A DNA stretch of 64,000 bases. Origin: Planctomycetota bacterium (lineage in GTDB: Bacteria; Planctomycetota; PUPC01; JACPCR01). A program made the position numbers and the translations under genes. This document shows positions 2,311-46,371 of this stretch, piece after piece (position 1 is the stretch's first letter; each line of letters begins with the position of its first letter). The stretch is taken from NCBI GenBank assembly GCA_016179685.1, contig JACPCR010000062.1, positions 1-64,000 of the forward strand, written 5' to 3'. The notes below the pieces were generated by a model. It made no database searches. It was not told where the DNA came from and saw nothing but the letters and a program-made list of their open reading frames with translations.

Positions 2311-3048
2311 TCAGCCTGGATACTCTATTTTCACCGTGTCGAACATGACCAGCCCCTTCGGCAGGGCAGCCATGTCAACCTTGTAATCTCGGGCAGCCCA
2401 CTCGTGATGAATGTCCTTGACCTCGCCTACGGGGACGACCGTCAGCGGAAACAGCACAAAAATGATGTCCACGTTCACGTCGGCCAGCACCTCCTCAATC
2501 TTCCCATAGCCGTACACGTGAGTCATGTCGTGCCGGCCGCCCAAACAGGTCCACTGGGCCGGGTCCGGAACAAGCTGGACCGTTTGCTCGGACCAGTCGG
2601 GCGTAACCTTGAAGGGCTGGCCCGTCAGCACGAAGTTGGGCGTGGTCTTGGGCGGGCCCTGGACCTCGCCCTGAACGAGCAGCACCAGTTGCGCGCCGCC
2701 CAAATCCGGCCGAGGTATCGGCTTATGGTAATTGCACAAAGGCCCGGCAAGATCGAGCGTGCCGCGTAGGCGGACGCTGAGCTTCACGTTCGTCAAGTTG
2801 CTGCTGAAGCCCTGGGCCAGGAATCGATTCTCGCCCCGCGCCTTGGCCTCCGGACTCAATCGCCTGGCCGCGGTGAGCAGATACATCAGCAGGTGCAGGT
2901 AGCCTGCCCCAGGAGGCGCATGGTTCGCATCCAGCGACCACGGACTCACGCAATAGGCCACCCCATCCCAGACGGGGAGGGGGCTGCGCAGATCGGCGAC
3001 CCATCCACCAGGGCCGTCGTCGAAGGTCTCGATATAAGTTCTTCCCAC
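2311..3048 (-). CDS. Conserved hypothetical protein, CBM/LamG-like texture
   Basis: A 245-residue protein. I place the start at GTG 3046-3048 because GGAGAGG lies seven bases upstream and the product then begins MGRTYIETFDDGPGGWV; a start at 3117 would add 23 unconvincing residues. The opening FDDGPGGW motif and alternating beta-like segments resemble carbohydrate-binding or concanavalin-type jelly-roll modules in environmental bacteria. No signal peptide is evident. It converges on the secreted protein gene to its left, so the two may form a functional pair in glycan handling, but this is inference. No catalytic residues can be named. Confidence 0.55.
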   Translation of the reverse strand: MGRTYIETFDDGPGGWVADLRSPLPVWDGVAYCVSPWSLDANHAPPGAGYLHLLMYLLTAARRLSPEAKARGENRFLAQGFSSNLTNVKLSVRLRGTLDLAGPLCNYHKPIPRPDLGGAQLVLLVQGEVQGPPKTTPNFVLTGQPFKVTPDWSEQTVQLVPDPAQWTCLGGRHDMTHVYGYGKIEEVLADVNVDIIFVLFPLTVVPVGEVKDIHHEWAARDYKVDMAALPKGLVMFDTVKIEYPG

Positions 3049-3230
3049 AGGTGCCTCTCCTCTACAATTGAAATCTAAAGTGCCTATTATAGGACAGGGC
3101 CAAAGTGACGAAACCACACCCGTGCATTTTCATATGAGTCCGAACCGGGCCTATGCAAGAGAGCGGTTCAACACGATGTATCTCGTTAAATCCTGCCGCT
3201 TGGGTTAGAATCACATCAGGAGTCTTTGCC

Positions 3231-10436: not shown

Positions 10437-10747
10437 TCAGGGGAATCGCCGCTTGGAAAGCCTCTTCAGGCTTTCCATGTACCCCGCGATGAGTGCCTCC
10501 TTCTTGGCCCGCGTCCACCGCTTGAACTGCGCTCCCGACGTCTTGCCTCCGCAAACGTTCGAAACGCCTCCCGCTAGACGACCTCGATCGGCGGATCCAG
10601 AGCGGTCGTTCGGCAGGCGCGACCAGAGATATGATCCTGGATGCGTTTCTTCAGATCGGCTGTCGCGTCCGGATACAGGGCCCCGGATTTCAACCTCAGC
10701 ACGTAAAACCATGCCCTTCGGCCGCTATCGAGCACTTCGTCGATCAT
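10437..10747 (-). pseudogene. GIY-YIG nuclease gene, inactivated
   Basis: Read leftward from ATG 10747: AWFYVLRLKSGALYPDATAD, then LKKRIQDHISGRACRTTALD, a GIY-YIG nuclease N-terminus. A TAG at 10574-10576 falls where a Tyr is usual; the frame then resumes REAFRTFAEARRRE. A one-base slip leads into QFKRWTRAKKEALIAGYMES and a stop at 10437. This is the usual C-terminal helix of the small single-domain GIY-YIG proteins. Palindromes flank both ends (10749-10790 and 10427-10445), matching a nuclease-plus-hairpin mobile unit that has died. Confidence 0.65.
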
Positions 10748-13486: not shown

Positions 13487-16171
13487 CTAGAACCCGTACT
13501 TCAGGCGCCGCATCTCGAATGCTTCCCGTCCACCTTCCAGGACCTCCTCGACGAGCTCTCTGACCGGACGGGCGTCGATGGACCCCATGTGCTCCTTCGG
13601 CATCCGGGCCTTGCCCTCCTGCCCCGCCTCACCGGAGGCGGTCAATCCGACGATGAGTTCGGCGTCTCCGAGCACGGGGATATTCGCGTTGTGCGTCGCA
13701 AAGACGAACTGCCTGCGCCGTTTCTCCTCGCGCATCTTCGGCACTACGCCTTCGGTAATGAATCTGTTGTCGAGGTCATCCTCGGGCTGGTCCACCACGA
13801 GAGGGGCGTCGGATTCAAGAAGTAGGAGGAGGAGAACGGCCGTTGCCTTTTGACCCGTCGACAGATCCTCGAGCCTCTGCCACTGAGCAGGTTGGCCCTC
13901 CGCGGCGACGTTCAATTCGATCTGGGTCGTGGGAGCCAAATCCAGCTCCTCGAGCTGCATGACTACTTCCGAAGGCGCCTGCGCGACCCGGTCTGCTTGC
14001 GCTGAAGGCATATTGTACCTTTGGGCGAGCGCGTCCCTTCCCGCTCGGCAAGCGTCGGAAAGTTCCTTCAGGGAGAGGCTTTCGGCCTGACGAAGGGCTT
14101 CGAGCGCCTCGGAAAGGCGACCACCGACTCGATCCTGGAGGAGCTGAAAGAGAGGCTCCCGATTCCCGGCAAAGGTCACCTGAACGCGCACGCGGTCGGC
14201 GAGTTGCTTGTTGACCTTCTTCCCAGCGCGCTCAAGCCGTCGGAACTCCTCCGCCTTCACGTCCTCCCATTCCGCGAGCAGGTTGCGACGCCGGTCGTCA
14301 TACTCCTTCCGCGAACGCTGGAGGATCGTCTGGCGCTCGCGAAGGGGTCGGAGCTCCTCGATCTGGCGCCGAAGTCGGATGAACTCTTCGCCGTCCACCT
14401 TCGATTTTTGTAGTTCGCGGAGGATCTTCTCGTAGGCGGCTTGAACCCCCTTCTTCCGTTCGTCCCAACGCGATCTCACAGCACCAAGATTACGGTCGGC
14501 GACTTCGAGAACCTCCTGCAGCTGTTTGGCGACGGCCTCGAGTTCGCGGTTTAGGGCGGAAAGTACCGTGTCCACCTCCGCCAAAATCTCCTTGCCGGGC
14601 AACCCATCGAGGGCTTTGTGCGAAACGAAGGCTCGATCAATCGGCAGCGCTCGGCGCAGGTCCTCAAGTAATTGGCGGAACGGACCGAGGCGGTCCGTGG
14701 ACGTCTTCAGGACCTGTTCCTCCCGGACCAAGAGGCTTTGTTCTTTCAGCCGGTCTTCGAGACCCGCTTCCTGAAATCGCTTGAGTGTCTCTTCAAGACC
14801 CGGGAGAGATGCCAGGCGCTCCTCTACCTGGGTCATTTCCTTGTTTGTATCGAGGATCTTGCCCCGAGATTGCTCGACTTGCCGCCGCACGTCTGCCTTG
14901 CGTCGATCCAGAGACGCATCGCGCTCCACGAAGCGTTCGAGTAGGCGGGTCAGTTTTTCTGGACTCTTGGTCAGCTCGGATATCTCGTGTTGCCCGAATA
15001 CCTCGACCTGCGGAACGATGGCCGCTGAAGTTATGTTGAGAACGTTGCCATTCTGGTCTCTCACGACGGGCGGATTAGGAATCGTCCTCTCGACACGGTA
15101 CTCTTGCTTGTTGGGGCGGTGCGAACGCAGAAGCAGTGAGATCTTCGTCCCACTCTTCAAGACGTTCCGGACGATACCCTCGTGCGCTTTGCGAGCTTCT
15201 TCGCCGAGCGGCTCAAGCCCGAGGACGTAGCGTAGGCTTTCAATTACCGTGGACTTGCCGGTTCCTCGACCGCCAACCAGGACGTTGAGGTTTTCGTTCA
15301 GGTGAACGGCCGCTCCATCCAGGAACCCCCCCTGCCAGGCCAGGGTGACGAACTCAGCATGGTCTTCCGGAGGGGCATCGCTGGCCAGGCGAACTCGGGA
15401 CTCCGGGTCGAGAAAGGCCTGACGCAGACCTTCGACGGAAACCTCTGACATCTTGATCCAGCATGATGCCCCCGGCTTTTCGAGGTCGTCTGGACCGGAC
15501 ACGTCTTGCGCGTTGAGGATGGCAAGAGCGCGATCCCTACGGTGCTCCGCGTTCTTGTTCTCCAGGATTGGGCGCAGGTTGTCCGGTGCGTCCGAAACCG
15601 GGCCGGGGAGGGAACATGCAAGGAGATTGTGAGAGGTCCACGCGTTGATCCTGGCCTGTCCAGAGAGCGTCGCCAAAAGCCCTCCTTGACCGGCGACATG
15701 GGCGGCAACACAAGCTGCGCCCCATTTCCTTGATTCCTCCAGCAGTTCGAGGGCGTCGTACTTGCCTGTCGGAGACTTCGCGCCTTGATCGTGAATACCG
15801 CAGTCGCCAACCACCCTCTCGAGCGAGTCCAGGTCCTTCGTAGGATCGAAGAGGCACAGGAAATGGACTCCATCCTTCGTCACGGCCTCGAAACCCGGGA
15901 ATACGTGGATGCCTGCTGCCTTCGCAGACTCGACGAGGCTCCTCGAGCTACGCACGCGGTAGTGGTCGGTGACAGCGACGACCTCAATCTTCCTTTCCTG
16001 GCAAGCCTGGATGATCGCGTTGTTGTAGTCGTTTTCGGTCGTGAACTGAGTCTGCTTCTTGTGCCGGCCGATGTACTCAAACGGGTTGACCTGAAGGGCG
16101 CACCTATAGAAGCGCGCACCGCTGGGAAGTCTAAGGGCGCCCACCAAGGCAGGGTCCGCTTTCGTCGTCAT
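13487..16171 (-). CDS. TrlF-like PHP/AAA ATPase (set A)
   Basis: An 894-residue protein starting at ATG 16171, overlapping the helicase stop. The N-terminus carries a PHP-like part (IEVVAVTDHYRVRSS near 65-80, HVFPGFEAVTKDGVHFLCLF). An SMC/ABC-type ATPase follows: Walker A GGRGTGKSTVIES near 295, a long coiled coil (about 420-680), a signature-like LSTGQKATAVLLLLL near 780, and Walker B VVDQPEDDLDNRF near 796-808. The H-loop is FVFATHNANIPVLGDAE. The layout matches the TrlF family, proposed to couple nucleic-acid sensing by the ATPase to phosphoesterase activity. It is intact and probably the effector of set A. Confidence 0.8.
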   Translation of the reverse strand: MTTKADPALVGALRLPSGARFYRCALQVNPFEYIGRHKKQTQFTTENDYNNAIIQACQERKIEVVAVTDHYRVRSSRSLVESAKAAGIHVFPGFEAVTKDGVHFLCLFDPTKDLDSLERVVGDCGIHDQGAKSPTGKYDALELLEESRKWGAACVAAHVAGQGGLLATLSGQARINAWTSHNLLACSLPGPVSDAPDNLRPILENKNAEHRRDRALAILNAQDVSGPDDLEKPGASCWIKMSEVSVEGLRQAFLDPESRVRLASDAPPEDHAEFVTLAWQGGFLDGAAVHLNENLNVLVGGRGTGKSTVIESLRYVLGLEPLGEEARKAHEGIVRNVLKSGTKISLLLRSHRPNKQEYRVERTIPNPPVVRDQNGNVLNITSAAIVPQVEVFGQHEISELTKSPEKLTRLLERFVERDASLDRRKADVRRQVEQSRGKILDTNKEMTQVEERLASLPGLEETLKRFQEAGLEDRLKEQSLLVREEQVLKTSTDRLGPFRQLLEDLRRALPIDRAFVSHKALDGLPGKEILAEVDTVLSALNRELEAVAKQLQEVLEVADRNLGAVRSRWDERKKGVQAAYEKILRELQKSKVDGEEFIRLRRQIEELRPLRERQTILQRSRKEYDDRRRNLLAEWEDVKAEEFRRLERAGKKVNKQLADRVRVQVTFAGNREPLFQLLQDRVGGRLSEALEALRQAESLSLKELSDACRAGRDALAQRYNMPSAQADRVAQAPSEVVMQLEELDLAPTTQIELNVAAEGQPAQWQRLEDLSTGQKATAVLLLLLLESDAPLVVDQPEDDLDNRFITEGVVPKMREEKRRRQFVFATHNANIPVLGDAELIVGLTASGEAGQEGKARMPKEHMGSIDARPVRELVEEVLEGGREAFEMRRLKYGF

Positions 16172-19100
16172 TGCTGGCCTCCGTACCCCAGAGCTTCTTC
16201 TCTTACCTGCATTGGCCGGGTCATAGCATCCACCGACAGGTAGTAGTGGGCCACCTTAGTGACCTCGTGCCACTCGAAGCGGGCGGGGTCCTTGATCGGC
16301 TTCTGCGTCTGTGGTTTCGTGCCACAGTCCGTGACGACGTACAGCCAGTAGCAGTCGCGGCGGTCTTCGGCCACGCGGCGCTCGTTCGGGGTGAGGAGAA
16401 TGGTGCCCGTCGGGTCGGCGAGCCCCTTCACCTCGATCAGCCGCAGCTGACCCGAATTGACGTCCAGGCTGGTGACATCGTACCCGAGGTTCTTCTCGTG
16501 CACGTCGTAGACTTGCCGACCTTGGGATCGCTCGTAGTCCATGACCACCCGCATGGCCGTGGCCTCGGTCTCAGGGTTGGGCTGCAACCGCTGGACATCG
16601 GGCGTCTCGCGTTCGGGATGGGGCAGAACCAGGACACTTGCCATGCGTTCCACGGCCTGAAGGGTGAGAGCACGTTGCTGATCGAGCTCCTTCCGCCTCC
16701 GTTCCCGCCGCTGGAGCAACTCGGCATGCCGGCCCTCGGCCTGGGCGAGACGGCCTTCCGCGCCAGCGATCTTCTGTTCGACCTCGGCCGCCGCGCGTCC
16801 GATTTCCTCGTCCGCCCGCTGGAGGAGCTCCGTGAGCGACAGTTCGATGTGCGCCGAGATCCGTTCGACCTCCGCGAGGCGATCCTTGCGGGTCTCTTCG
16901 AGAAATGGCGTGAGCGCCTGCTCATTGAGCCAGGCCGTTGCTTCGGGAATCGTAGCGACCGGGGGACTCGTGCCCGGCGGGGCCGCCGGCGTGAAGTTTC
17001 CAAGTAGACTCGGCTCACGTAGGCGGGTCTCCCCGTGTTCCGCGACCTCGACCGCGAACAACCGCTCATGGATCACCTGGCCGAGGCCATCGACGACCCG
17101 AGCCCGGTAGAAGTCGAGTCGCGTAGGCCCCTCATGCTGGAGCGAGTAGAAGGTCGCGCCCTTACCGAAAACGTCGAGAGCCTGCGCGTGGGTGTGCCGC
17201 CGGATCGCCTCGAACAGAGGATGGCCCGGCGTGACCCACTCCAGGTTGCTCGTTTCCGCCGTCTCGCGATCAGTCGAACAACGAGGGTACCTGGCCGCCA
17301 GTTCAGGGAGCTTCCAGCTCGGGTCGCTCTCGTAGCGGCGCAGCACGGACGGAGTCCTTCCCGGCTCGAACGTGTGGGGAAGGCGCGGAAAGGTCTTGAG
17401 GGTGAGCGGCACGAACTCGGCCGCGTCCCGAATGAACCGCGCGATGGTCTCGGGCACGACGCGCCGTTCCTGTGCCCGCGCGCGTCGCTCGATCAACATC
17501 TCCAGGTTGAGCTTCTTCGATGCCAGCCCCTCCAGGGCGTTCTGGCAGATCGCCCGAAACTGGCCCTCGTCCACGTTCCTGAGCAGCCGCTCCTCGAGAG
17601 CGGCGTCGCCGAGCCGCCCGGCGTAGTAGTCCCGGAGCACCCGTTCAACGTGGGCGGAGGGAAGGACCTCACCGACGACGTTGAAGACGGCATCGTCATC
17701 GAGGGCATCGCGGATCTCCTGGAGCTTCTCCAGCAACCGCTGCAGCACCCGGCCCTCGATGGTGTTCGTCGCGACGAAGTTGAAGATCAGGCAGTCTTTT
17801 CGCTGGCCGTAACGGTGGATGCGGCCCATGCGCTGCTCAAGGCGGTTCGGGTTCCACGGGATGTCGTAGTTGAAGAGGATGTTGCAGACCTGCAGGTTGA
17901 TGCCTTCCCCAGCCGCCTCGGTCGCCACAAGAACCTGGATGGTCCCTTCCCGAAACTGCTGCTCGGTGTGGAGCCGGGTCCCACGCTCGTCACGCGATCC
18001 CGGCTTCATGCCGCCGTGGATACACCCAACCCGGAAGCCCCAGGACTTCAGCCGGTCCAAGAGGTAGTCCAGGGTGTCCTTGAACTCCGTGAAGATGAGC
18101 AGCCACTTCTCCGGGTGGTCGAAGAACCCTTCTTGCTGTAGCAGTTCCTTCAATTCCGAGAGCTTGGCCTCCGTACCCGAGTCCTCGACGGCTTGGGCCT
18201 GGCCGGCCAGCTGCATGAGCTCCTGGACTTCTTCGCGGACCTGCTGGGCGTTGCCCGCGAGCGTGATCGCCTCCAACGTCTCTTCGAGCCGCTCGCGCTC
18301 GCTCTCCTCCATTTCCTCCATCTCTTCCGGGTCGGGAAGGTCCGGCGGGGCCAGTCGCGCGAGGTCCTGCGCACGCTTCAATCCCTCTTCGAGGCGCTTG
18401 GCCCGGTTCTGAAGGGAGTGCCGCATCGCGTAGGTGCTTGAAGCCAGCCGTCGCTGGTAGAGGGACATCAAGAAGCCGACGGCACGAGCGCGCGGGTCGT
18501 CGCCTTGCGCGGCGGCCTTGGTGCTCTGCTGCTTCACGAAACGGGTGATGTCGCGGTAGAGGTCGAACTCCGCCCCGTCGATCTGAAATTCCACAGTGTG
18601 CGGAATGCGCTTCGTGAAGATCTTCTCCGCAACCCAGGTTCCGCCTGCCTGCCGCGCCGCGAGTCGGCCCGCTTCGTACTCGCGTTTGATCCATTGTCTC
18701 CCGAACCCGGTTTTCAATTCTTGTTCCCTCGCCACGGCCTGCTCCCGTGTGCTGAACTACTCCCAATGGATGACTTGGACAGGTCGGCGAGATTTCGTCC
18801 AACTTACCTCACCGTGTTCATGCTCGGATAACCGGCGCGGAATACTGTCCGTCTGGCCGATGTAGAACGACTCATCTGAACACTTCAGGACGTAAACAAA
18901 AAATGTGTCGCGCCGCGGCGCAGGCAGGTCCGTCCGGCGCTCCGGGAAGTAGACCATCGCCTCCTTGGTGCGCCGGAGGTAGAAGGGCGCACGGCGGCGG
19001 TCCATGGCCTCGCGGATGGATCGGACGTCCGCATAGGCATCCGCGTCGAGGAGTTGGAGGAACAGGCTGAAGTTCAGCGGATCGCCCTTGTGCGGCGTGG

Positions 19101-19887
19101 CCGTCAAGAGGAACATGTGGTCCGCCGTGTCCCTCAGGAGCTCGCCCAGCTTATAGCGCAGGCTCTTGTGGGTCTCGTCGGCCGCCGACATGCGGTGCGC
19201 CTCATCGACGATGACGAAGTCCCAGTGGACCTGGCGCAGCCCGGGGAGAATCTCCTTCCGCTTGGCGAGGTCCAGGGACGTGATGATCTTCTTCTGTTCG
19301 AGCCACTGGTTGACGCCGAACTGGTCCCGGATGTCGCCGCCTTTGAGGACGAGGAACTTGGCGTCGAACTTCTCCTTCAGCTCGCGTTGCCATTGGAAGG
19401 ATAGGTTGGCGGGGCAGACGTTCAGAATGCGTTCGGCGAGGCCGCGCAGTTCGAGTTCGCGGATGAGCAGGCCGGCCATGATCGTCTTGCCGGCACCGGC
19501 ATCGTCGGCCAGGAGGAACCGAACGCGGGCGAGCTTGAGGAGGTAGTCGTAGATGGCCTCAAGCTGATGAGGCAGCGGGTCCACACGGGAAATGGAGAGG
19601 CCGAAGTAGGGGTCGAACTCGTAGGCGATCCCGAGGGAGTACGCTTGCAGCCCGAGCCGGAGGAGGCGTCCGTCGCCGTCGTAGGAGTGCCGCGCATCCA
19701 GGATGGTGAGGGCATCGAGATCGCGGGTCGTCAGGGTGACCTTGCGGAACCGCTCCGATTGCGTGCCGACCAACCCGGCCACCCACGTGTCGGGGCCATT
19801 TGCGCGCACCGTCTCCACTCGCATCGGCTCGCTGAACAACGAGCCGGTGAGAATCTGTCCTTCCCGTAGGAGTTGCTTCTCACTCAT
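16168..19887 (-). pseudogene. SNF2 helicase with DUF3883, interrupted by an in-frame GIY-YIG element (set A)
   Basis: One continuous leftward frame of 1,240 codons broken only by a TAG at 18757-18759. Helicase lobe 1: DDAGAGKTIMAG near 130, DEAHRMSA near 227, LLTATPHKGD near 264. Lobe 2: EGINLQVCNILFNYDIPWNP and GRIHRYGQ near 690. A DUF3883 nuclease-like C-terminus ends the protein: NLGYDVTSLDVNSGQLRLIE near 1,140. Codons 321-415 encode a GIY-YIG nuclease domain inserted between FPERRTD and GTWVAEKIF; the set B helicase has no insert at the matching place. Restart at GTG 18735 could give a separate C-terminal protein. The start (19887) overlaps the Xre stop. DrmD of DISARM is a similar SNF2 protein, but drmA, drmB and drmC are absent. 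Confidence 0.8.
18643..18927 (-). mobile_element. 285-bp GIY-YIG-encoding palindromic element inside the helicase
   Basis: On the coding (minus) strand the element starts CTGCCTGCGCCGCGGCGCGA and ends CGGCGCGGCAGGCAGGC, forming terminal inverted repeats. Its length is exactly 95 codons. Inside it encodes FFVYVLKCSDESFYIGQTDS, then IPRRLSEHEHGEVSWTKSRR, HWE, a TAG, and FSTREQAVAREQELKTGFGR, a complete small GIY-YIG nuclease: GIY-YIG-type VYV and YIG strands, catalytic-type Arg, and Glu in REQELK. Its first and last codons translate LPAPRR and LAARQAG, the same residues made by the short palindromic elements elsewhere. Confidence 0.85.
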
Positions 19888-20275: not shown

Positions 20276-20914
20276 TTAGGCGTTGAGGACCGCGCACAGG
20301 CGGTTCGAGAGGCTCCCGCCCTTGCCTGCCCGCCGCAGCCCGAAGGGCGAAGGAGGGTTGCCGACCTCCTCCTTCGGGCCGACGTGCTTGTCCGTGTATC
20401 CGTAGGCGGCCTTGTTGATCGACTCCTTGAGGGCGGCGAGGGGGATCACATCCTCGGTCTTCGGCTGGCCCTTGACCATCACGCGCACGCCCTTGCCTGC
20501 CCGCGTGCGTGCGGGGCATGCACGCGCAGGCGGGTCGGTCTTCTCCACCAGGAAGGAGACCTTCCCGGAGACGTTCGCGCTCCGGCCGCCCTCGTACTCG
20601 CACTCGACGCCGGCCTTCTGGCAAGCCTCCCGGTAGGGAGCGAGCGCGGTCCGGTAGGCGTCCTTCGCCTCCGCGACCCCGGCGTTGGCCTTCTCGGCAA
20701 GCGCCTTCGCCTCGGCCTGGGCATTCTCGAGCCCGCCCTTCGCCGCCTCGACCGGCTTGCGCAGGGCGTCGAGCTCGGCCTGGGAGACCTTCGGCTCGAC
20801 GGCCTTCGGGGCCTTGGGCTCCTTCGCCTCCGCCGCCTCGGCCTTCGCGGCCTTAGCGCCGGCGCCCTTTCCGCTGGCGGCCGCCTTGCCGCCCTTCGTC
20901 TTCTTCTTGCTCAT
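20276..20914 (-). CDS. Lys/Ala-rich phage protein, copy A, with two in-frame inserts
   Basis: Starts MSKKKTKGGKAAASGKG at ATG 20912-20914. A basic, Ala-rich N-terminus and a coiled coil (VEAAKGGLENAQAEAKALAE) precede a conserved C-terminal part (CEYEGGRSANVS, VMVKGQPKTEDVIPLAALKE, KHVGPKEEVGN, GGSLSNRL). The copy at 58417-58965 matches throughout, except that copy A has 13 extra residues after LVEKTD and 11 extra after EEVGN, both encoded by palindromic elements. Function unknown; the basic tail suggests nucleic-acid or envelope binding. It is the last gene of the lysis cassette. Confidence 0.75.
   Translation of the reverse strand: MSKKKTKGGKAAASGKGAGAKAAKAEAAEAKEPKAPKAVEPKVSQAELDALRKPVEAAKGGLENAQAEAKALAEKANAGVAEAKDAYRTALAPYREACQKAGVECEYEGGRSANVSGKVSFLVEKTDPPARACPARTRAGKGVRVMVKGQPKTEDVIPLAALKESINKAAYGYTDKHVGPKEEVGNPPSPFGLRRAGKGGSLSNRLCAVLNA
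20324..20356 (-). mobile_element. 33-bp in-frame palindromic element
   Basis: Extra relative to copy B, which reads CCCTTGTTGCC here. On the coding strand it starts CCTCCTTCGCCC and ends GGCGGGCAGGC, next to AAGGGCGG. It adds 11 codons (PPSPFGLRRAG). A GCCCGAAGGGC hairpin forms its core. Confidence 0.85.
20495..20533 (-). mobile_element. 39-bp in-frame palindromic element
   Basis: Extra relative to copy B, which reads GCCCTTGTCGGTC here. On the coding strand it starts CCGCCTGCGCGTGC and ends GCGGGCAGGC, between GAC and AAGGGCGTG. It adds 13 codons (PPARACPARTRAG). GCGTGC/GCACGC arms make the hairpin. Confidence 0.85.
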
Positions 20915-21218
20915 GGTCTCGTTCTCCTTTCGTCTTCGATTCCTGCACGACCTCCGGCACATTGCCGAAGGTCACCCGTTCCACCACGTCCCGCAACCGG
21001 CACTCCGGGCAGAGCCGCTCCTTCACCGCCTCCAACAACGCGGCCGTCCGTTCCAGGGAGTGCGCGAGCCCGGTCAGGTCCCGGTGCTCCACGGCTCCCG
21101 GCTCGGTATCCCGGCACGCGATGCCGGCCAGCGCCACGCCGTCGTTCCGCAGGCGGCTGGCGAGGCCGGCGAGCAGCGTCGCCACGTCCGTCTGCTCCGT
21201 CTCGATGCTGTCGTGCAA
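20853..21218 (-). CDS. Small phage protein of lysis cassette, copy A
   Basis: I choose TTG 21216-21218 as start because GGAGG sits seven bases upstream and the same TTG start with GGAGG is conserved in copy B. The 121-residue product has helical text (LLAGLASRLRNDGVALAGIA, GLAHSLERTAALLEAVKERL), a CPEC pair and a basic tail. Its last 62 bases overlap the start of the next gene in another frame, and the same 62-base overlap exists in copy B. Function unknown; a spanin, regulator or chaperone role in lysis cannot be distinguished. Confidence 0.6.
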   Translation of the reverse strand: MHDSIETEQTDVATLLAGLASRLRNDGVALAGIACRDTEPGAVEHRDLTGLAHSLERTAALLEAVKERLCPECRLRDVVERVTFGNVPEVVQESKTKGERDHEQEEDEGRQGGRQRKGRRR

Positions 21219-31978: not shown

Positions 31979-32200
31979 ATGCCTACTGATTCAAGCAGTG
32001 TTTTCACCATCGAGGACTTGGCCGAATACCTTAAGATTTCCAAGTCCACGCTTTACAAGTTGGCGCAGAGCGGGGCTCTCCCCGGAATCAAGGTCGGCAG
32101 GCACTGGCGTTTCCACAGGGACGCCGTGGACGAATGGCTGAAAAGCCATCCCTTGGACAAGAAAGAAACGAAACAGGGAGAGCAGGAGACGCAGAAGTGA
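31979..32200 (+). CDS. Excisionase-type HTH protein
   Basis: A 73-residue MerR/excisionase-like HTH: FTIEDLAEYLKISKSTLYKL, then AQSGALPGIKVGRHWRFHRD and AVDEWL. A Lys/Glu-rich tail follows. Such single-domain proteins act as transcriptional regulators or recombination directionality factors. Between fic and the MNT gene it more likely regulates the operon. Confidence 0.8.
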   Translation: MPTDSSSVFTIEDLAEYLKISKSTLYKLAQSGALPGIKVGRHWRFHRDAVDEWLKSHPLDKKETKQGEQETQK

Positions 32201-32218
32201 CGCCTGAGGAGCGGACCA

Positions 32219-32745
32219 TGAACGCGAAGAAGAAGCCGAAGAAAACGACCAAATTTCTTGGTCGAACGACCAAGAATCTTGGTGATAGGGGCTGGGCCGG
32301 GCTGTTCGCATCTCCGACGATGGCCCGACTGCTCACCCTATTTCTCACGCATGCCGAGAAGGACTTCTACCAGAAGGAGTTGGCCCAGGCGACCGGTGCC
32401 GGACTCTACACTGTGCAGCGCGAGCTCGCTCGCCTGGGGAAGGCTGGTCTTGTGACTCGAATGCCGCGCGGGAACCGGGTGTACTATCAAGCTAATCGAA
32501 CGCACCCTGCGTTCGAGGATTTGAAGCGGGCCATTCTGAAGACCACGGGACTGGGCGAGACCCTTCGCGCGGCACTGGCCTCCTTGGCCGACCGTGTGCG
32601 GGTCGCCTTCATCTACGGTTCCTTCGCCCGCGGCGAGGAGGCGGCGGGGAGCGATATCGATGTCCTTCTCGTGGGCGACCTGTCCCTTCGTGAGGCATCT
32701 ACCGTTCTCGGCCCCGCCGGTCGGGAACTGGGACGCCAAGACATC
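32219..32745 (+). pseudogene. HTH-MNT nucleotidyltransferase antitoxin, C-terminus lost
   Basis: From ATG 32219: a winged helix (FYQKELAQATGAGLYTVQRE, LARLGKAGLVTRMPRG) fused to an MNT core (VAFIYGSFARGEEAAGSDID, VLLVGDLSLREAS), with the GSFARG and DxD motifs. The natural text ends at RELGRQ near 32745; the same frame then reads shadow sequence without a stop and runs all the way into the AlbA gene. The usual last 50-60 residues are absent, and the HEPN partner begins immediately in another frame, so a deletion has joined the two genes. Confidence 0.65.
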
Positions 32746-33148
32746 CGCCAGGGAAGTGGCGGACCTCCTGCGCGTCGTGGATCGCGATCTGGCGGACGCG
32801 GCCCTTTCCCAACTCTCGACGGACCGCCGTTTCGCCACGGCCTACAACGCCGCGCTGCAGCTGGCCACCATCGCGCTTCACGCGTCCGGCTACCGGGCCG
32901 CGGGAGCGGGGCATCACTGGGCCACCTTCCACGTGCTGCCGGAAATCATGGGACCGCAGACACAGGCGCGAGCCGACTACTTCGACAACTGCCGCTCCAA
33001 GCGGAACGTCACGGATTACGACCGCGCCGGGGAGATATCCGAACGCGACGCCGAGGAGATTCTTGCCGAGGCCAAGACGTTCCGCAAGGAACTGCTCGCC
33101 TGGCTCACGAAAAATCATCCGCCGCTTGTTCCAAGAGGCGCTCAATGA
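32743..33148 (+). pseudogene. HEPN-domain toxin partner, N-terminus lost
   Basis: The frame reads TSAREVADLLRVVDRDLADA, then LSTDRRFATAYNAALQLATI and ALHASGYRAAGAGHHWATFH, ending LAWLTKNHPPLVPRG. The helical texture and YNAALQLATIAL are typical of HEPN partners of MNT proteins (SAV_6107-like). No start codon lies at its true beginning; it emerges from the fusion point with the MNT gene. Its stop overlaps the AlbA start (ATGA), so it still couples translation if expressed. Confidence 0.65.
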
Positions 33149-34632
33149 CAACGACCAAGGGAACGAAACGCGCATGCCGTACCATCACCGCCGACCATGT
33201 GAAGCTCCGCATCCGCGAGGGCGAGGGCCTCACCGTGGAGTTCAAGGAGCGCTACACCCCGCGCATCGCCGAGGACATTGTGGCTTTCGCCAACGTCAAG
33301 GGCGGAACGCTCCTCCTCGGCGTGCGGGACCTGCCTGCCGCGTCGCGGGACGCAGCGCAGGCAGGCGGCGGGACCGTCGTCGGCGAGCGCCTGACCAACG
33401 ACCTGAAGGCCAGGATCAACAGCTTGGCCCGGAACTGCAAACCGACCATTTCCGTCGAGCTTGCTCAGGTCGGCGAGGTCGTGGCTGTCGTCGTGCCGGA
33501 GGGCACGGAGGAGCCGTACTCCTGCGGCTCGGGTTACTACCGGCGGCTCGATGGCAACACGCAGAAGATGAACCACGATGAGTTGCGCATCATGTTCGCG
33601 GAGAATGACCCAACGCCGTTCGAGGAACGGACGGTCCGGGACTTCACGTTCGACGACATCTCCAAGGCCAAAATACGCGCCTTCACCAGAGCGGCGGGCA
33701 TTCGCGTCGGTCGAACCCCCTTGCCGGATTTCCTTCGCAGCCTCAACGCGGCGGACGAGGCACGGGTCAAGAACGCGGGCATCCTCTTTTTCGCCAGGGA
33801 CATCGAGAAGCACTTCCACCATGCAGAGGTCACGCTGCGGGCGTTCAAGGGGAAAGAACGCCAGCACATCTACGACCGGCGCGACGTGCGGGACGACCTC
33901 CTCACCCAGTTCATAGAGGCCGTCGCTTTCCTCAAGAAGCACCTGAACATTCGCACCGAGATCAAGGGACTCGACCGCAAAGACATCTACGAGATCCCGC
34001 TGGAGGTCCTGCGCGAGGCCGTCGTCAACGCCATCATGCACCGCGACTACAGCATCAGGGGGACGCAGGTGTTCGTGGAGGTCTACGACGACCGGGTGGA
34101 GGTGGCGAACCCCGGTAGCCTGCCCAAGGGCCTGTCGATCCGGGAGCTCGGCGCGGTTTCGATCCGCAGGAACGCGATCATTGCGGATATCTTTTCCCGA
34201 ATGCACATGGTCGAGCGGAGCGGGATGGGCATCCGGAAGATGAAGGATGTGATGGCGGCTACCGGGCTCCAGGAGCCGAAGTTCGAGGTGAACAGCTTTT
34301 TCCGGGCGACCTTCCAGCGATCGCCGGAGTTCTCATTGAAAGAGAAAGCGCTGTCGGCGAAAGAAGGTAAGGCGACCAAACCCGCACAGACAGAAGACAG
34401 GGTGTCTGCACTGAAAGTTGCACTGAAAACTTCAGTGAAAAGTGCACTGAAAACTGCATCGGCGATTATGGACGCCATGAAGGAAGATCCCAAGAGCACC
34501 GTTCCCGAAATCGCCAAGGCAATCTCGGTCAGTACGCGCACGGTCAACAATTACATCCGTCGTCTGAAAGAAACGGGCTTCATCCGCCGCGTCGGCCCGG
34601 ACAAGGGCGGCTACTGGGAGGTGGTGCGATGA
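33145..34632 (+). CDS. AlbA/Schlafen-type ATP-binding protein with in-frame insert
   Basis: ATG 33145, a 495-residue protein. AlbA_2 domain: GLTVEFKERYTPRIAEDIVA and FANVKGGTLLLGVRD. A palindromic element then adds about 12 codons before GGTVVGERLTNDLKARINSL. The homologous set A protein (12246-13475) has GIEDDGTVSG at this loop without an insert. The HATPase-type part has REAVVNAIMHRDYSIRG near 290 and SGMGIRKM near 360, followed by a winged-helix tail (STVPEIAKAISVSTRTVNNY). Probably a nucleic-acid-binding regulator or effector. Confidence 0.75.
   Translation: MTTTKGTKRACRTITADHVKLRIREGEGLTVEFKERYTPRIAEDIVAFANVKGGTLLLGVRDLPAASRDAAQAGGGTVVGERLTNDLKARINSLARNCKPTISVELAQVGEVVAVVVPEGTEEPYSCGSGYYRRLDGNTQKMNHDELRIMFAENDPTPFEERTVRDFTFDDISKAKIRAFTRAAGIRVGRTPLPDFLRSLNAADEARVKNAGILFFARDIEKHFHHAEVTLRAFKGKERQHIYDRRDVRDDLLTQFIEAVAFLKKHLNIRTEIKGLDRKDIYEIPLEVLREAVVNAIMHRDYSIRGTQVFVEVYDDRVEVANPGSLPKGLSIRELGAVSIRRNAIIADIFSRMHMVERSGMGIRKMKDVMAATGLQEPKFEVNSFFRATFQRSPEFSLKEKALSAKEGKATKPAQTEDRVSALKVALKTSVKSALKTASAIMDAMKEDPKSTVPEIAKAISVSTRTVNNYIRRLKETGFIRRVGPDKGGYWEVVR
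33331..33366 (+). mobile_element. 36-bp in-frame palindromic element in the AlbA gene
   Basis: After GGGAC it starts CTGCCTGCCGCGTCGC and ends GCGCAGGCAGGC before GGCGGGACC. It adds 12 codons (LPAASRDAAQAG). The boundary may shift by one codon because GGC repeats. It sits in a surface loop, judged by the set A paralogue. Confidence 0.75.
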
Positions 34633-39117: not shown

Positions 39118-42100
39118 CTACGCTACTGGGGGTGCCAACTTTAAGCTATCGATCCAGTTTGCCAGGGATTCGCCTTTCTCCCACACCGACACAGGCACGC
39201 CATATCTGAGCGCCTTGTCGTTCCGTATTCCGACTTCACAATCTTTGGCCTCATCCACGAGCGTATGCGGATCAAGAACCAGATCTCCGATGCCAACGAC
39301 GACCTTGGCCTTGGGCTCGACATCCGTAACTTTCCATTCAGCCGCCATCCGGTCTGGGCCAATCCCTCGCAGGTCAACAACGCAAAGGACAAACTTCTCG
39401 TTGTTCTCTGATGCCTTCTGGGCTTGTGCTGGCGTCAAGCGGACTTCCCCCGTTGTGGTTGCCTTTACCTCGAGGAAGTAGTCGGCCAATCGAAAGTGGT
39501 GTGTGCCCGCGTCGATGGGCGGCGCGTCGTCCAGAAACAGGTCGTAGTCGTACCCGCAGTCGATGAAATCTGGGTGCAGCTCTCGCTGGTCCAGGTACTT
39601 CTCGATGGCAAACTGGACGCCCAATCCAAACTGCCGATTCCGTTCTTTTTCGGCTTCACGCTGCTGTCGTGATGCCAAATCGGCCGCCAGATCGCTGTAC
39701 TTGGACGGGTCGCTACCCAGCGCCTGGACAATGTTGGCCAACCCATTCTCAACTTGCCCTCGTGCCTCCTGCGATGGCACCGTGCTGAGCAGTCGCAGTT
39801 CCAGGGCGTTGAAGCCGAAGTGCCTGCTAAGCAGGTCGACCCCGGCATCGTTCCCGGACAGCCACGTCGGGTCAAGCAACGGCCTCAGATTTCCAGCGTT
39901 GGCCATTACCGGCTCGACGCCTTTCTCGCCTTGAACAGGCACCCAGGCCTTGGTCTTAAGGTCGCCCAGCCACAGCGCTGGACGAACCTTGATGTGTACG
40001 TCAGCACGATCCATGCGACCCACGATTTCACGGGTTTCCCGCCATGAGGGGTCATGCGGGGCGGCGTGCTTCAGTACCAGTCCCAACAGGAGCTTGGCTA
40101 TCTCCACGTCGCTCTGGCACCGCTGGATCAGTTCATTGGGCAGAAGGGCGATCTGGGACAGATCGATGTCAGCGACCGTCACATTGGTGCAGTCTTCCCC
40201 TTCCACTGCAAGCGCTTTCAGCCGTTCATCCCGCAAATCACGAGGGGCATCGCTACAGAGGGGGTCGATGAAGGCTATTTTCCATGTAACGAGTGCATCG
40301 ACCAACGCTCGCTCGCCGCCGAGCCGGGTCAGATATTCTTCCGACAGGATACGATCTTCCTTGTACAGCTTGGCGAATGGTTTGGCGTCGGCGTGCCACA
40401 CCGTCACTGGCGACATGATCTTGCGGTTGCTCGCCCAGCGGGCGGCGGTGCTGTCCGACACAACCAAGGGGCATCGCTGCGCAAGGGCCGCGGCTTCAGC
40501 CGCACGAGTATCCCAGAGGTATTTGAGGAGATCGACGCTCGTCTCGCGGTAACACTGCTTCTCGACTGATATGGGCTTATTGTCGGGAAGGTGTTTGGCG
40601 AGCTCCTCCAGACACTCCGTGATGATCGCCTCCTCGCCTAGGGACTTGGCCACCTGTTCGGTGAGAAGGGCCTTCATGTGCGAGAAGTTGCCGTCGGCCG
40701 AACATTGGAAAAGCTCATCAAGAACGAGGCGCCCCCGAACATCCAGGCGGATGGATTGTGCGATATCCTTCAACACCGCCTTGATCCCTTCATCTCGATA
40801 CAGATCGCCAGGCGACTTGAGAACCTTGTTCTGATCGGGGAGCAGATTATGCATGATCGTGCCGCAGTTGTGCTTGCCAGCGACCTTCCCGAGAAGGTCC
40901 AGGAAGCGTGCGAGCCACCCCAAGGGATCGTCCACCTTCAGGTCGTCCAGCTTCGCCGCTCCGTTGCGGACGGTCTCAGCCATCTCCGTGAGCGTGATTC
41001 GCCGCACGAGGACGTCCAGCCCAGCCCACTCGAAGGCGATAGCTGTCCAATCCGGGCCAACCTGTAGCGCTGGCGGATGGGTATCCCTCAGATCGCTGAC
41101 CAAGCCGCACATCTGGTCGAACGACAGTTCGTCAGAACGTTGCACAAGATCGAATCTCGGGACCACGAAGACCGCCGTGGGCGAGATCCCGGTGGCACTG
41201 AGCATCCCTCCCGCAGTCTGAACAATCGGCATTGCGGCCAGCGCTCGGGCCGCAGCGCTTAGCTTGGCTCGCCACCAGATCCGCAGCGGCTCGTCCAGTT
41301 TTTCCCCGAAGGCTCGATCAGGCATGCCGACGCGCGCCAGCCTATGACCATCGCGCCATGCTTCCTTTGTTGCCAAGTCGACCAGGGTCGGCAGGAGCCC
41401 CAAAGCCTCGGCAATCTGCTCCTTGTCTGACTCCTTCATCAGCACGCGGTCGCGTTCCTGCCGCAGGTCGAAGCGGCCATCGATCACGGCATTGATCGGG
41501 ACAAAATCCGACGCCCGAATCGGGAATCGACAGAACAGCCGGGCCGCATCGTCGCTTGGCACACAAACGCGCCATTGGCGGTCAACCTGTTCGAGGGTCA
41601 CAACGAGGCTCGACGACGAGTCGGTCCGAAGCCGCAGGCGGACAGTCTTCATGATCTTCGGCGCACCACCATCGACGACGATGCTGAACTGCCGCTCCCG
41701 GACGTGAGTCCTACTGAATCCGCGCTCGACGGCGGCCTGGGGCGAAAAGGCGATTGACGCGCCAGATTCGTCGCAGATGTTCACCGTCCCGAGGTGATCG
41801 CAGGTTCCATACAGGTACGGCAAAGTTGCGTGGAAAGCGGACACGCCGACCTGGGCGGCCTCGACGTTGTCGGTCTGGTACTCGAACCGTGCCGTCCTGT
41901 GACCGTTGATCGCCGCGAGTTTCTTGGCGTCCTTGATGCCCTGATAGCAGTGCGTAGTATTGTCGAAGATGCCTTCCTCGTCCCCATCGCGGTCCAGCCG
42001 AATGGAGACCTCTTCGTGCCCGGTATCGGCGACAAGCAAGCCCCGGAACCCGATTTGCAGGGACAGGACATGCGTTACGAGGAAGCCCGTGCCGAACCGG

Positions 42101-42420
42101 CCGGTCGTTTCAGTGGACTCGAATTCCTTGTTGGACCCACCCGACAGCAAGGCCGCCAAGTCTTGCATGGTGAACGGTTTGCCGTCATGCTCATATGCAA
42201 CGGTATGGCCATCGAAGGTGACCCATATATTGACCCCGTCAATACCGTCACGAGCTCCTGGGTCGTGAGCGTTCTGTGTCAGCTCAAACGGCCATCGAGC
42301 TCCAGCCCCATGGATGTCGCCCCGTGCTTGGTTCACCAGCGTGCGCATACGGCGCGCTTCATTCCGGTCTAACTGGGCCCTGCGAGCCTGCTCAAATTGC
42401 TGTAGTGCGGCATCGGACAT
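39118..42420 (-). CDS. Hsp90/sacsin-like ATPase with DUF3883 nuclease-like C-terminus
   Basis: A 1,100-residue protein. The N-terminal GHKL ATP-binding domain has FELTQNAHDPGARDGIDGVN near 48-67 (N box), TVAYEHDGKPFTMQDLAALL near 75-95 and GRFGTGFLVTHVLSL near 108-122 (lid). A long helical middle follows. The C-terminal DUF3883 has DYFLEVKATTTGEVRLTPAQ near 975-995, with the E-V-K pattern of PD-(D/E)xK nucleases. This sensor-plus-nuclease layout is typical of anti-phage proteins of the sacsin-like group, where phage signals would trigger DNA cutting. It is full length and stands alone between 31-bp direct repeats, beside the recombinase cassette. Confidence 0.75.
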   Translation of the reverse strand: MSDAALQQFEQARRAQLDRNEARRMRTLVNQARGDIHGAGARWPFELTQNAHDPGARDGIDGVNIWVTFDGHTVAYEHDGKPFTMQDLAALLSGGSNKEFESTETTGRFGTGFLVTHVLSLQIGFRGLLVADTGHEEVSIRLDRDGDEEGIFDNTTHCYQGIKDAKKLAAINGHRTARFEYQTDNVEAAQVGVSAFHATLPYLYGTCDHLGTVNICDESGASIAFSPQAAVERGFSRTHVRERQFSIVVDGGAPKIMKTVRLRLRTDSSSSLVVTLEQVDRQWRVCVPSDDAARLFCRFPIRASDFVPINAVIDGRFDLRQERDRVLMKESDKEQIAEALGLLPTLVDLATKEAWRDGHRLARVGMPDRAFGEKLDEPLRIWWRAKLSAAARALAAMPIVQTAGGMLSATGISPTAVFVVPRFDLVQRSDELSFDQMCGLVSDLRDTHPPALQVGPDWTAIAFEWAGLDVLVRRITLTEMAETVRNGAAKLDDLKVDDPLGWLARFLDLLGKVAGKHNCGTIMHNLLPDQNKVLKSPGDLYRDEGIKAVLKDIAQSIRLDVRGRLVLDELFQCSADGNFSHMKALLTEQVAKSLGEEAIITECLEELAKHLPDNKPISVEKQCYRETSVDLLKYLWDTRAAEAAALAQRCPLVVSDSTAARWASNRKIMSPVTVWHADAKPFAKLYKEDRILSEEYLTRLGGERALVDALVTWKIAFIDPLCSDAPRDLRDERLKALAVEGEDCTNVTVADIDLSQIALLPNELIQRCQSDVEIAKLLLGLVLKHAAPHDPSWRETREIVGRMDRADVHIKVRPALWLGDLKTKAWVPVQGEKGVEPVMANAGNLRPLLDPTWLSGNDAGVDLLSRHFGFNALELRLLSTVPSQEARGQVENGLANIVQALGSDPSKYSDLAADLASRQQREAEKERNRQFGLGVQFAIEKYLDQRELHPDFIDCGYDYDLFLDDAPPIDAGTHHFRLADYFLEVKATTTGEVRLTPAQAQKASENNEKFVLCVVDLRGIGPDRMAAEWKVTDVEPKAKVVVGIGDLVLDPHTLVDEAKDCEVGIRNDKALRYGVPVSVWEKGESLANWIDSLKLAPPVA

Positions 42421-42701
42421 GCCCTACCTCGTCAACCGCACGACGGTTCGAAAGGGTTCCGTCTGGGGTCCGGTCGTAACGCGGTTGTTAACCCAGAGAG
42501 GATCGGTAAACAGAGAATCGGAGAGTTTGAGGGGGTTTTTTCGGGGTGCAGCTCGCCACCATGATGGTTCGATTCGCCGCCCCAAACTCTCGGACTCGAA
42601 CCCAAGGATCTTAATCGTCCGGTTTCCGCGCACCCAATTCTTTCTAAGTCGTACATAAAGAAGAAGTCCCGGTGGTCCTCGCGGCCGGTTCTCTCCGCAA
42701 G
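42421..42701. other. Upstream region of the ATPase gene, no gene seen
   Basis: About 280 bases. It holds the right 31-bp repeat (42463-42493), a GGGGGTTTTTTCGGGG run near 42531-42545, and a stretch resembling a tRNA T-arm that does not fold into a tRNA. The promoter for the leftward ATPase gene must lie here. Confidence 0.4.
42463..42493. repeat. 31-bp direct repeat, right copy (possible att site)
   Basis: Thirty of 31 bases equal those at 39016-39046. It lies 43 bases upstream of the ATPase start, so it may also carry part of the promoter. Confidence 0.75.
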
Positions 42702-42944
42702 CTACCAGAAATGTCGGCTAGCGAAAGCTTGTCCCGAGCCGGATTTCAAGTAACGCTCGAATTCCAAGGCCCTCCGGTCATCCTCGAACGCTATCGCCAC
42801 GACCAGCCACCAAGGCGCGTACTTGCTCGTATGAACGCTTTTTCCGGCGTTGTGTTCAGCCAACCGGCGCTTCAGATCATCCGTCTTGCCCACATACCGC
42901 TGCGTGGGAGCAGAAATACTGCGCAGCAGGTACACATAAGTCAT
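42702..42944 (-). CDS. GIY-YIG nuclease, intact
   Basis: An 80-residue single-domain GIY-YIG protein from ATG 42944: MTYVYLLRSI, RYVGKTDDLKRRLAEHNAGK and RALEFERYLKSGSGQAFA. The YVYL...YVG strands, the catalytic-type Arg in LKRR and the Glu in EFERYLK are all present. It is the only undamaged member of the three GIY-YIG readings in the window. A run of palindromes lies directly upstream (43020-43088). Possible role: mobilising or maintaining the palindromic repeats; alternatively an ordinary UPF0213-like nuclease. Confidence 0.8.
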   Translation of the reverse strand: MTYVYLLRSISAPTQRYVGKTDDLKRRLAEHNAGKSVHTSKYAPWWLVVAIAFEDDRRALEFERYLKSGSGQAFASRHFW

Positions 42945-43019
42945 GACGCCCCTGGTTCATCCAGAATGGCCTGCCATCCGTAGCTCGACCGCACGGGCCA
43001 ACATCCAAAAAGGCTATCC

Positions 43020-43088
43020 GTCCTCCTTCGCACCGCGCGCTACGGAGGACATCCTTCGCCCGTCCGCTGGTGCGGTCGATCGAAGGAT
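43020..43088. repeat. Two palindromes between GIY-YIG gene and gene X
   Basis: GTCCTCC (43020-43026) pairs with GGAGGAC (43044-43050), enclosing TTCGCACCGCGCGCTAC. ATCCTTCG (43051-43058) pairs exactly with CGAAGGAT (43081-43088). They abut the first shared bases of gene X, just as a different hairpin does in copy A at 10829-10845. Confidence 0.65.
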
Positions 43089-43651
43089 GGCTCCCCGAAT
43101 GTAACAGTGCTCGACGCCGCCCGGGCGCGGCCGAGCCCGAGATCTACTTCCGCATCCTCCACGTCGCCGTGGATGGCCCCAACGGCGCGCCCGTGGCCGC
43201 CTACCGCGAACAAACGGTCGAGATCGCCCTCGGGCCCAAAGGGGCCTTCGAAAACGGCAACATCGGCACCCTGACGCGCCAGGTGCCGGCCGATCGGGGT
43301 ATCAACGCCCTGCCGCCAAGGGTCCGAAACCGGAAGCCGCCCAAGGGCCCCCGGACGCCCCGGGTTGTCGAGCTCCTCCGCAAGGCCCTGGAGTGGCAGG
43401 CCCTCCTCGCCTCCGGCGCCGCAGCCAGCCAGGCGGCCATCGCCGAGCGTGAGGGCATCACCCGCGCCCGGGTCACACAGGTCATGGGCATGTTCCGCCT
43501 CGCGCCCGAAATCCAGCAGCACATCCTGTCCCTGCCTGATGCCGTCCGCCGCCCACCGATCACGGAGCGTGCCCTCCGGCCCATTGCCCAGTTGGACAGC
43601 AATGCGGATCAGAAGGCTCGGTTCCAAGAACTGGTCGAGCAGACCCAATAG
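43070..43651 (+). CDS. Gene X: unknown N-terminal domain plus HTH
   Basis: A 193-residue reading. The first half (EPEIYFRILHVAVDGPNGAP, VAAYREQTVEIALGPKGAFE, NGNIGTLTRQVP) is unrecognised but conserved with copy A at 10850. The second half (LLASGAAASQAAIAEREGIT, RARVTQVMGMFRLAPEIQQH, ILSLP) is an HTH related to the recombinase-cassette protein at 36080. The GTG at 43070 lies in a palindrome, so the true start is uncertain and the 5' end may have been displaced. It faces the last gene of set B tail to tail (13 bases), and the equivalent remnant borders set A. Confidence 0.6.
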   Translation: MRSIEGWLPECNSARRRPGAAEPEIYFRILHVAVDGPNGAPVAAYREQTVEIALGPKGAFENGNIGTLTRQVPADRGINALPPRVRNRKPPKGPRTPRVVELLRKALEWQALLASGAAASQAAIAEREGITRARVTQVMGMFRLAPEIQQHILSLPDAVRRPPITERALRPIAQLDSNADQKARFQELVEQTQ

Positions 43652-43664
43652 GTCCACGAGGGCT

Positions 43665-44390: not shown

Positions 44391-44510
44391 CCGGACATCA
44401 CTCCCCTTTCCTAGCTGGCCTCCTAAGGGAAAAGGCCCATCTCACAGTTGGAGCGGGACACCTCCCGCCCCCAGGTGATTATCGGCTGAAACACTTCTCG
44501 ACCATGACCT

Positions 44511-46362: not shown

Positions 46363-46371
46363 GTTCGCAAC

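Follow-up and report, generated by a model that had tools for sequence, protein, structure and literature searches.

An in-frame GIY-YIG nuclease element with inverted ends in a helicase gene of a Planctomycetota bacterium, and its relatives in restriction and defense-type genes

Results

A small nuclease element lies in frame within a helicase gene

We analyzed a stretch of 64,000 nucleotides (the window) from a Planctomycetota bacterium (GenBank assembly GCA_016179685.1, contig JACPCR010000062.1, positions 1 to 64,000 of the forward strand), in which the gene for an SNF2 helicase carries a 285-bp element encoding a GIY-YIG nuclease. An earlier note on this DNA, made from the letters alone, had described an in-frame insert that is intein-like and devoid of splicing domains. 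The host frame (16168-19887, minus strand) comprises 1,240 codons, and Pfam recognized SNF2-rel_dom on one side of the insert, Helicase_C and NOV_C/DUF3883 on the other, and GIY-YIG (35.7 bits) at 18760-18927 of the window. The host is closest to HmaA in PADLOC, and the insert lies in its protein between ...FPERRTD and GTWVAEKIF.... As the earlier note had claimed, the insert has inverted ends (18 nt, 83% complementary) and the combined frame is open apart from a single TAG. The features of the locus are:

16168-19887, minus strand: host gene, an HmaA-like SNF2 helicase with NOV_C/DUF3883, in two open frames split by the TAG
18644-18928, minus strand: full in-frame element of 285 bp (95 codons) with inverted ends and GIY-YIG nuclease; shifted by 1 bp, 18643-18927
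18920-18928, minus strand: 5' end of the element, CCTGCCTGC, followed by GCCGCG and kept as DNA in the family
18644-18652, minus strand: 3' end of the element, GCAGGCAGG, with CGCG before it
18757-18759, minus strand: TAG, the sole stop of the combined frame

The placements 18643-18927 and 18644-18928 yield an identical join in the window. The earlier note had given the former; its length and its join hold, and the latter (CCTGCCTGC...GCAGGCAGG) is favored by the 16 further copies described below, because all 17 copies have C immediately ahead of the first codon and the base that follows GCAGG varies (C, T or G). Since only these two 285-bp placements give the same join, a target duplication derived from the flanking CGGA repeat was ruled out; as read from the junctions, the duplication is 0-1 bp at most. 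At the DNA level the full element occurs once in this genome, a 137-contig assembly. The TAG is probably either a very recent change or a sequence error, because both halves of the helicase have low ratios of nonsynonymous to synonymous change (dN/dS) when compared with their closest homologue, L037 (0.09 upstream and 0.07 downstream; labels L### and G### denote loci and genomes fetched in this analysis), and because amino acid conservation in the element does not drop beyond the stop (79% identity to the copy L081 after it, 73% before it).

The upstream part of the helicase was used to search 294 genomes of the phylum, and 11 homologous loci were found beside the window's own, including one paralogue from the window's genome. 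The insert is absent from all 11, so none of them has the 95 residues as an ancestral domain, the finding that the earlier note had named as counter-evidence. In seven close homologues, six from other genomes (80-89% identical over the part searched) and the same-genome paralogue (85%), the motif FPER-x-x-D^G-x-W runs uninterrupted (^ marks the insertion point), and four distant homologues (51-54% identical) read FPDP-x-TG... and are shorter at the site, also with no insert. Excising exactly 285 bp recreates the join of the close homologues, and the FPERRTD/GTWVAEKIF join foreseen in the earlier note matches all seven exactly. The helicase that the note called set B likewise has no counterpart of the 95 residues, in an alignment that is loose there.

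Full copies occupy ten sites in restriction and defense-type genes

Copies were sought in six-frame searches that never required an open reading frame (ORF), with the best candidates per genome scored; the in-frame state reported here is therefore not produced by the search. In two phylum profile searches (392 and 395 genomes), scoring took in no more than 13 first-look candidates from each genome, and copies may have been missed. We found 17 full copies at 10 sites: that of the window and 16 further ones at 9 other sites, where the same nuclease lies between the same ends and in frame each time, in agreement with the proposal of a mobile element living inside proteins. The other counter-evidence named in the note, a lack of further loci that combine this nuclease with these ends, is likewise not borne out. 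The copies measure 279-297 bp, each length a multiple of 3, and all 17 lie in sense orientation and in the host's frame at both ends; 13 contain no stop or frameshift. End-to-end matches in a scan of named genomes were L081 (Nitrospira bin, 75% identical) and L082 (Thermodesulfobacteriota bin, 65%). The host of L081 is a 1,146-residue DUF1156 methylase that the element enters in frame without a stop, and L082 occupies the same site in a related gene. Full copies were present in 7 of 175 genomes of Nitrospiraceae, the family of L081, and the profile searches detected them in 6 of the 395 genomes from the phylum of L082 and in 4 of the 392 from the window's phylum, each time with one variant in addition. 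Across unrelated hosts, the elements are 47-76% identical to L081. Among the matches listed for plasmid and phage collections there was no end-to-end element match; viral contigs gave one distant relative with one query and none with the other. The sites and their copies are:

RRTD^G, HmaA-like helicase: the window
DPD^G, DUF1156 methylase: L081, L082
MTG^P, DUF1156 methylase: L195
VPD^A, HsdM: L162, L226
DD^G, HsdM: L204, L224, L225
GG^K, HsdR or HsdR-like: L163, L164
KD^G, HsdR or HsdR-like: L167
FH^G, HsdR or HsdR-like: L197, L198
TD(D/H)^G, DrmD-like helicase: L165, L166
QD^N, PD-(D/E)XK nuclease frame: L194

By site, HsdR or HsdR-like proteins are hosts three times, HsdM and DUF1156 methylases twice each, and a DrmD-like SNF2 helicase, an HmaA-like SNF2 helicase and a PD-(D/E)XK frame once each, which points to restriction-modification or defense-type genes as hosts. 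Families were assigned by scans of nine representative proteins and the window's, and the other copies were placed by shared site. The main Pfam domains of the hosts pass their cut-offs and most NCBIfam matches fall below theirs; the names DrmD and HmaA come from NCBIfam matches below cut-off together with PADLOC.

Seven of the nine other sites were compared with uninserted homologues, and six joins were exact and one approximate. Exact joins were given by homologues on named plasmids from Planktothrix (L081), Salipiger and Marinobacter (L162), Deinococcus sp. (L166), Croceicoccus (L167), Deinococcus aquaticus (L197/L198) and Acetobacter (L224/L225, for which the Nitrospiraceae HsdM L293 also gave one), and the approximate join by a plasmid homologue from Pusillibacter (L164). 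Some second homologues aligned uncleanly at the site (L082/L192, L082/L193, L081/L193, L167/L186 and L165/L191). The helicase that hosts L165 and L166 has a match in 24 of the 175 Nitrospiraceae genomes, from which 28 loci were fetched; 19 loci from 18 genomes are readable by motif at the site, 17 of them empty and 2 filled (L165 and L166), the other 9 being distant paralogues. Together with the window, uninserted homologues at eight of the ten sites (approximate for L164) rule out that the insert is an ancestral domain of its hosts.

The ends are conserved as DNA and the interior as protein

The family ends, CCTGCCTGCGCCG...CGGCAGGCAGG, are conserved at the DNA level down to synonymous codons. 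In 15 copies (counted without L204, which has a frameshift in mid-element, and L164, a near copy of L163), four codons at the start and three of the final four are nearly fixed (CTG CCT GCG CCG ... CGG CAG GCA), and codon entropy amounts to 0.48 bits at the ends versus 1.58 in the interior (P = 3e-5, codons with at least four synonyms). Interior dN/dS is 0.07-0.25 where computable, the near-identical L163/L164 aside, at proportions of synonymous differences of 0.22-0.74, these values being rough. By these measures, the ends evolve as DNA and the interior as protein under purifying selection. The target sites are GA^CGG-like: across the ten sites, G is found at 9, A at 8, C at 8, G at 7 and G at 6.

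Within the first 30 codons, ATG, GTG or TTG is absent from 8 of the 17 copies and lies only inside the domain in 6, leaving a candidate start codon before the domain in 3 (L082, L162 and L195). Because 14 of 17 copies have no start before the domain, the nuclease is probably translated as a segment of its host. Tyr, Arg and Glu columns, which we take to be the catalytic residues, are invariant in all 13 rows of profile A6, variant L199 included. Pfam found nothing but GIY-YIG in the insert of the window and of the scanned copies, and hence no transposase and no splicing domain. The AlphaFold model (mean predicted local distance difference test score 91) confines helices and strands to residues 9-85, with none in 1-8 or 86-95; the nearest structures are UPF0213 proteins (PDB 1zg2 and 1ywl) and Slx1, and the nearest folds are GIY-YIG. 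This agrees with the earlier description of an intein-like insert lacking splicing domains. A scan of the window copy against Rfam gave no match up to E 1 across 18400-19200.

Short palindromes share the two ends of the element

Miniatures of 20-48 bp combine the two ends of the element. The pattern CTGCCTGC-N(0-30)-GCAGGCAG had 20 forward matches in the window's genome and the reversed control pattern none, and the longer form CCTGCCTGC...GCAGGCAGG was present in 17 of the 175 Nitrospiraceae genomes. The window holds:

33330-33365, plus strand: miniature of 36 bp, in frame, LPAASRDAAQAG, in the AlbA_2 domain of an 832-aa ORF (32134-34632), at GGGA^CGG
20496-20534, minus strand: possible degenerate miniature of 39 bp, in frame, PPARACPARTRAG, in ORF 20276-20962, too diverged for exact patterns

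No plasmid match was obtained as an uninserted homologue of the miniature at 33330-33365. Among the fetched loci there are 32 distinct miniature contexts, defined by their 25-bp surroundings, which are a subset of the matches and related by descent; the length is divisible by 3 in 26 of them (P = 3.5e-8 under random lengths, a value for copies that are not independent). In-frame miniatures in restriction or defense-type genes are those of L285 (HsdR), L293 (HsdM; L294 is alike) and L066 (N6_N4 methylase), together with the window's own at 33330-33365 (AlbA_2 protein). None was found in G294 or G295. At two further loci (L065, about 3072-3113, and L077, about 3030-3062), solo palindromes lie where two gene fragments seem fused, as if marking deletions or assembly joins. 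In L065 an SNF2 helicase seems joined to another C terminus, and in L077 a DUF1016-like end seems joined to a presumably HsdR-like part.

Same-site copies are mostly sisters and some differ from their hosts in divergence

A tree of 71 GIY-YIG rows, built on few columns and with the frameshifted L204 left out, placed 16 in-frame rows, the variants L199 and L227 and one stand-alone row in a single clade (98/89). Same-site pairs are sisters at five sites; one of them, L162 and L226 (99/94), comes from different clades. L165 and L166 differ at 5 of 45 fourfold positions in the element and at 20 of 52 and 16 of 43 in the adjacent host windows, and L163 and L164 are near-identical from the element downstream and not upstream. 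Both patterns fit independent movement of the element, short of proof of homing. In the variants (L199:1456-1803 and L227:1-1400), a GIY-YIG domain lies in frame in L081-like methylases, with solo palindromes on both sides in L199 and on the left side in L227. These variants are possibly a link between stand-alone and in-frame forms.

We also compared the flanks of 87 stand-alone GIY-YIG loci from many groups, hand-listed from those among L007-L181 with full flanks. A repeat common to both flanks was found in 34 of the 87 versus 7 of 557 controls shifted within those loci, and these repeats vary between genomes. This suggests that such nucleases are generally partnered with palindromic repeats, and the in-frame family may have arisen from repeat-flanked stand-alone genes. 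A general partnership with CGTC-tagged repetitive extragenic palindromes (REPs) was unsupported (2/87 versus 1/559). Three of the four GIY-YIG matches of the window's genome fall in the window; the two stand-alone ones (42735-42941 and 10526-10711) adjoin paralogous flanks ending CGGGGAGCCAT, and the copy at 10.6 kb contains a TAG and is surrounded by palindrome-like repeats. In Nitrospira, a GIY-YIG gene (L083:2891-3341) is enclosed by direct repeats of roughly 90 bp that, judged by eye, resemble part of a tRNA gene.

Discussion

Likeness to known systems

The closest precedent is the HsdR protein MCA0838 of Methylococcus capsulatus, reported in 2006 to bear an inserted GIY-YIG domain that is missing from an 80% identical homologue and that its authors considered very recently inserted (PMC1564403). 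It resembles the family in having GIY-YIG inside HsdR and is a possible member; the passages on it treat an isolated domain insertion and mention no ends, mobile element or miniature form, and "palindrom" and "in-frame" have 0 occurrences in the text. The earlier note knew of no description of the combination. Among the matches listed from the open-access literature (as distinct from subscription papers and preprints) we found none of the family either, although the HsdR case was in print. A 2023 study of an actinophage methylase (PMC9957025) describes a LAGLIDADG endonuclease and "ShiLan" insertions, likewise a homing-type endonuclease in a methylase frame outside an intein, patchy and at differing conserved insertion sites. 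It concerns another nuclease family and a single phage host family, its passages on these insertions describe no miniature forms, and its text has 0 occurrences of "palindrom", "in-frame" and "GIY-YIG". Palindromes inside genes, those of REP type included, were reviewed in 2013 (PMC3733652). Like the Rickettsia palindromic elements and intragenic REPs treated there, the present units lie in frame within proteins, and the in-frame miniatures (33330-33365 in the window, L066, L285, L293 and L294) may be comparable to Rickettsia-type elements; no nuclease form is mentioned in the relevant part of that review, whereas here end-only and nuclease-coding forms share their ends.

Other classes share part of these features. 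Inteins also lie in frame within genes, carry a nuclease, form site-tied lineages and have uninserted homologues, but they favor housekeeping genes, and the present family has about 95 residues, no splicing domain, inverted ends conserved as DNA and defense-type hosts. REPs with their REP-associated tyrosine transposases also have palindromic ends and numerous solo copies, with a single gene-bearing copy in the genome; the gene of our family is GIY-YIG and not a Y1 transposase, and no open-access paper was found to contain both "GIY-YIG" and "repetitive extragenic palindromic". Insertion sequences and miniature inverted-repeat transposable elements (MITEs) resemble the family in terminal inverted repeats and end-only forms (here of putative deletion origin), and differ in that it encodes no transposase and that the target duplication in the window is 0-1 bp. 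Homing endonuclease elements have a nuclease of a homing family with conserved residues in common with it, although free-standing homing endonuclease genes have their own start and the family mostly has none before the domain. Group I and II introns are unlike these units of 279-297 bp, open from end to end in 13 of 17 and without a ribozyme match in the Rfam scan around the window copy. Small stand-alone GIY-YIG proteins (UPF0213 type; 1zg2, 1ywl) have the same domain and are nearest by sequence and fold, but the stand-alone rows represent genes in their own right, usually some 100 codons long, and just one of them falls within the clade of the in-frame copies. A homing-type nuclease within a gene is of a known kind, and the feature set of the family is shared by no single known class tested.

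Interpretation and alternatives

We consider it rather probable that the element is a non-splicing, protein-resident, homing-type mobile element. Its mobility is well supported by the comparison of sequences; the mechanism we infer, as we do the activity of the nuclease, its homing, the cause of the host bias and the origin and movement of the miniatures. The nuclease would be expressed from units that lie in a host gene in sense orientation and in frame; there its domain would protrude from a turn, frequently Asp-Gly, through short linkers and leave the host protein continuous. The nuclease would most likely cut uninserted host alleles, which repair from the inserted copy would fill (homing). 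Occasional insertion at other GA^CGG-like sites might found new lineages, of which only in-frame sense ones would stay active, and restriction and defense genes may be favored because they are dispensable, tolerant of change and widely exchanged between bacteria. The short palindromes with the same two ends would be internally deleted, non-autonomous forms. We give equal weight to the idea, and to its opposite, that the family makes up a mobile DNA class of its own: homing elements that reside in proteins without splicing, have inverted ends conserved as DNA and come in nuclease-coding and miniature forms, specialized on restriction and phage-defense genes and crossing bacterial phyla inside immune proteins.

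Several observations weigh against this reading. Four of the 17 copies are broken (by TAG, TAA, TGA or a frameshift): the window, L082 and L226 by one stop each and L204 by its frameshift in mid-element. L081 and L082, which share a site, are not sisters in the tree. Host windows further upstream in L165/L166 differ at 0.23-0.39 of fourfold sites, so the contrast with the element is modest, and their flanks show no co-conversion tract beside the element; the only tract-like pair is L163/L164, which includes a contig with 187 bp upstream. Nor is the element always more alike than the host in same-site pairs (L165/L166, L197/L198 and the pairs of L204). The empty-site comparison spans eight of the ten sites (all but those of L194 and L195), and the apparent host bias is read from the tally of hosts. 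As to the miniatures, many lie outside any recognizable gene, their sites are not significantly GA^CGG-like (4/32, P = 0.08), their proposed deletion origin is read from the shared ends, and genome by genome the data do not support them as plain followers of the full element, with miniatures present in only 1 of the 7 Nitrospiraceae genomes with full copies.

Palindromic ends, many solo end-only copies and the lack of a visible target duplication would also be expected of a REP- or MITE-like passenger mobilized in single-stranded form by a Y1 (HUH) transposase working in trans, with GIY-YIG as cargo or retention factor. REP-type palindromes are known in genes (PMC3733652), and Y1_Tnp occurs somewhere in 17 of 19 element or variant genomes versus 5 of 14 controls. 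The two others, G569 and G818, had no Y1_Tnp match, which leaves the transposase unsupported as a strict requirement; these assemblies are small (2.0 and 1.3 Mb), though, and possibly the gene arrived together with its element. The nuclease seems to matter because it is under purifying selection, which counts against a passenger, and we regard this explanation as unlikely, though deserving of attention. That selection would equally suit the recruitment of a GIY-YIG domain that improves restriction or defense proteins and is inherited with the gene, and so would its conserved residues and the fact that the identified hosts are DNA-acting and mostly defense genes. Recruitment is nevertheless improbable, given ends kept as DNA codons, ten unrelated sites, end-only miniatures, stop-decayed copies and the presence of the element in only 2 of the 18 Nitrospiraceae genomes with a readable copy of the L165/L166 host gene.

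An intein or intron with unrecognized splicing signals would account for in-frame insertion with exact uninserted homologues, and the inverted ends could pair in RNA. The unit, however, consists of a single GIY-YIG domain with short ends, and its frame is open in most copies. It starts with Leu and ends with Gly; intein junctions have Cys or Ser first and Asn last. The lone Pfam domain, the confinement of modeled structure to residues 9-85 and the empty Rfam scan led us to reject this candidate, which we hold to be very improbable. An artefact of assembly, or a dead fragment within a single metagenome bin, as suggested by the TAG of the window copy and the 137 contigs, is scarcely credible: it is refuted for the family by the 16 further copies with the same boundaries in other genomes, and the low dN/dS of both helicase halves against L037 argues against it in the window.

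Significance

Nuclease-bearing selfish elements in coding sequences, such as inteins and introns, are usually expected to splice out. The homing-type element proposed here appears to persist unspliced, in turns able to carry a small nuclease domain, and its hosts are genes guarding bacteria against mobile DNA. The close copies at nine other sites suggest an overlooked kind of mobile DNA resident in bacterial immune genes. The defense-type hosts, the miniature forms (one of them in the window) and the 2006 HsdR case go beyond the earlier note. The proposed element raises the questions of whether a homing nuclease can spread while fused to its host, why defense genes are used, whether carriers keep their defense activity and whether the short palindromes of such genomes are its remains. 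For annotation, some restriction and methylase proteins listed as having a "GIY-YIG domain" may harbor a parasite in place of a functional part.

Other features of the window

No transfer RNA genes were found in the window. A second defense cluster, at 39118-57996, encodes HmaA-, HmaB- and weakly HmaC-like proteins together with a TmtA-like protein.

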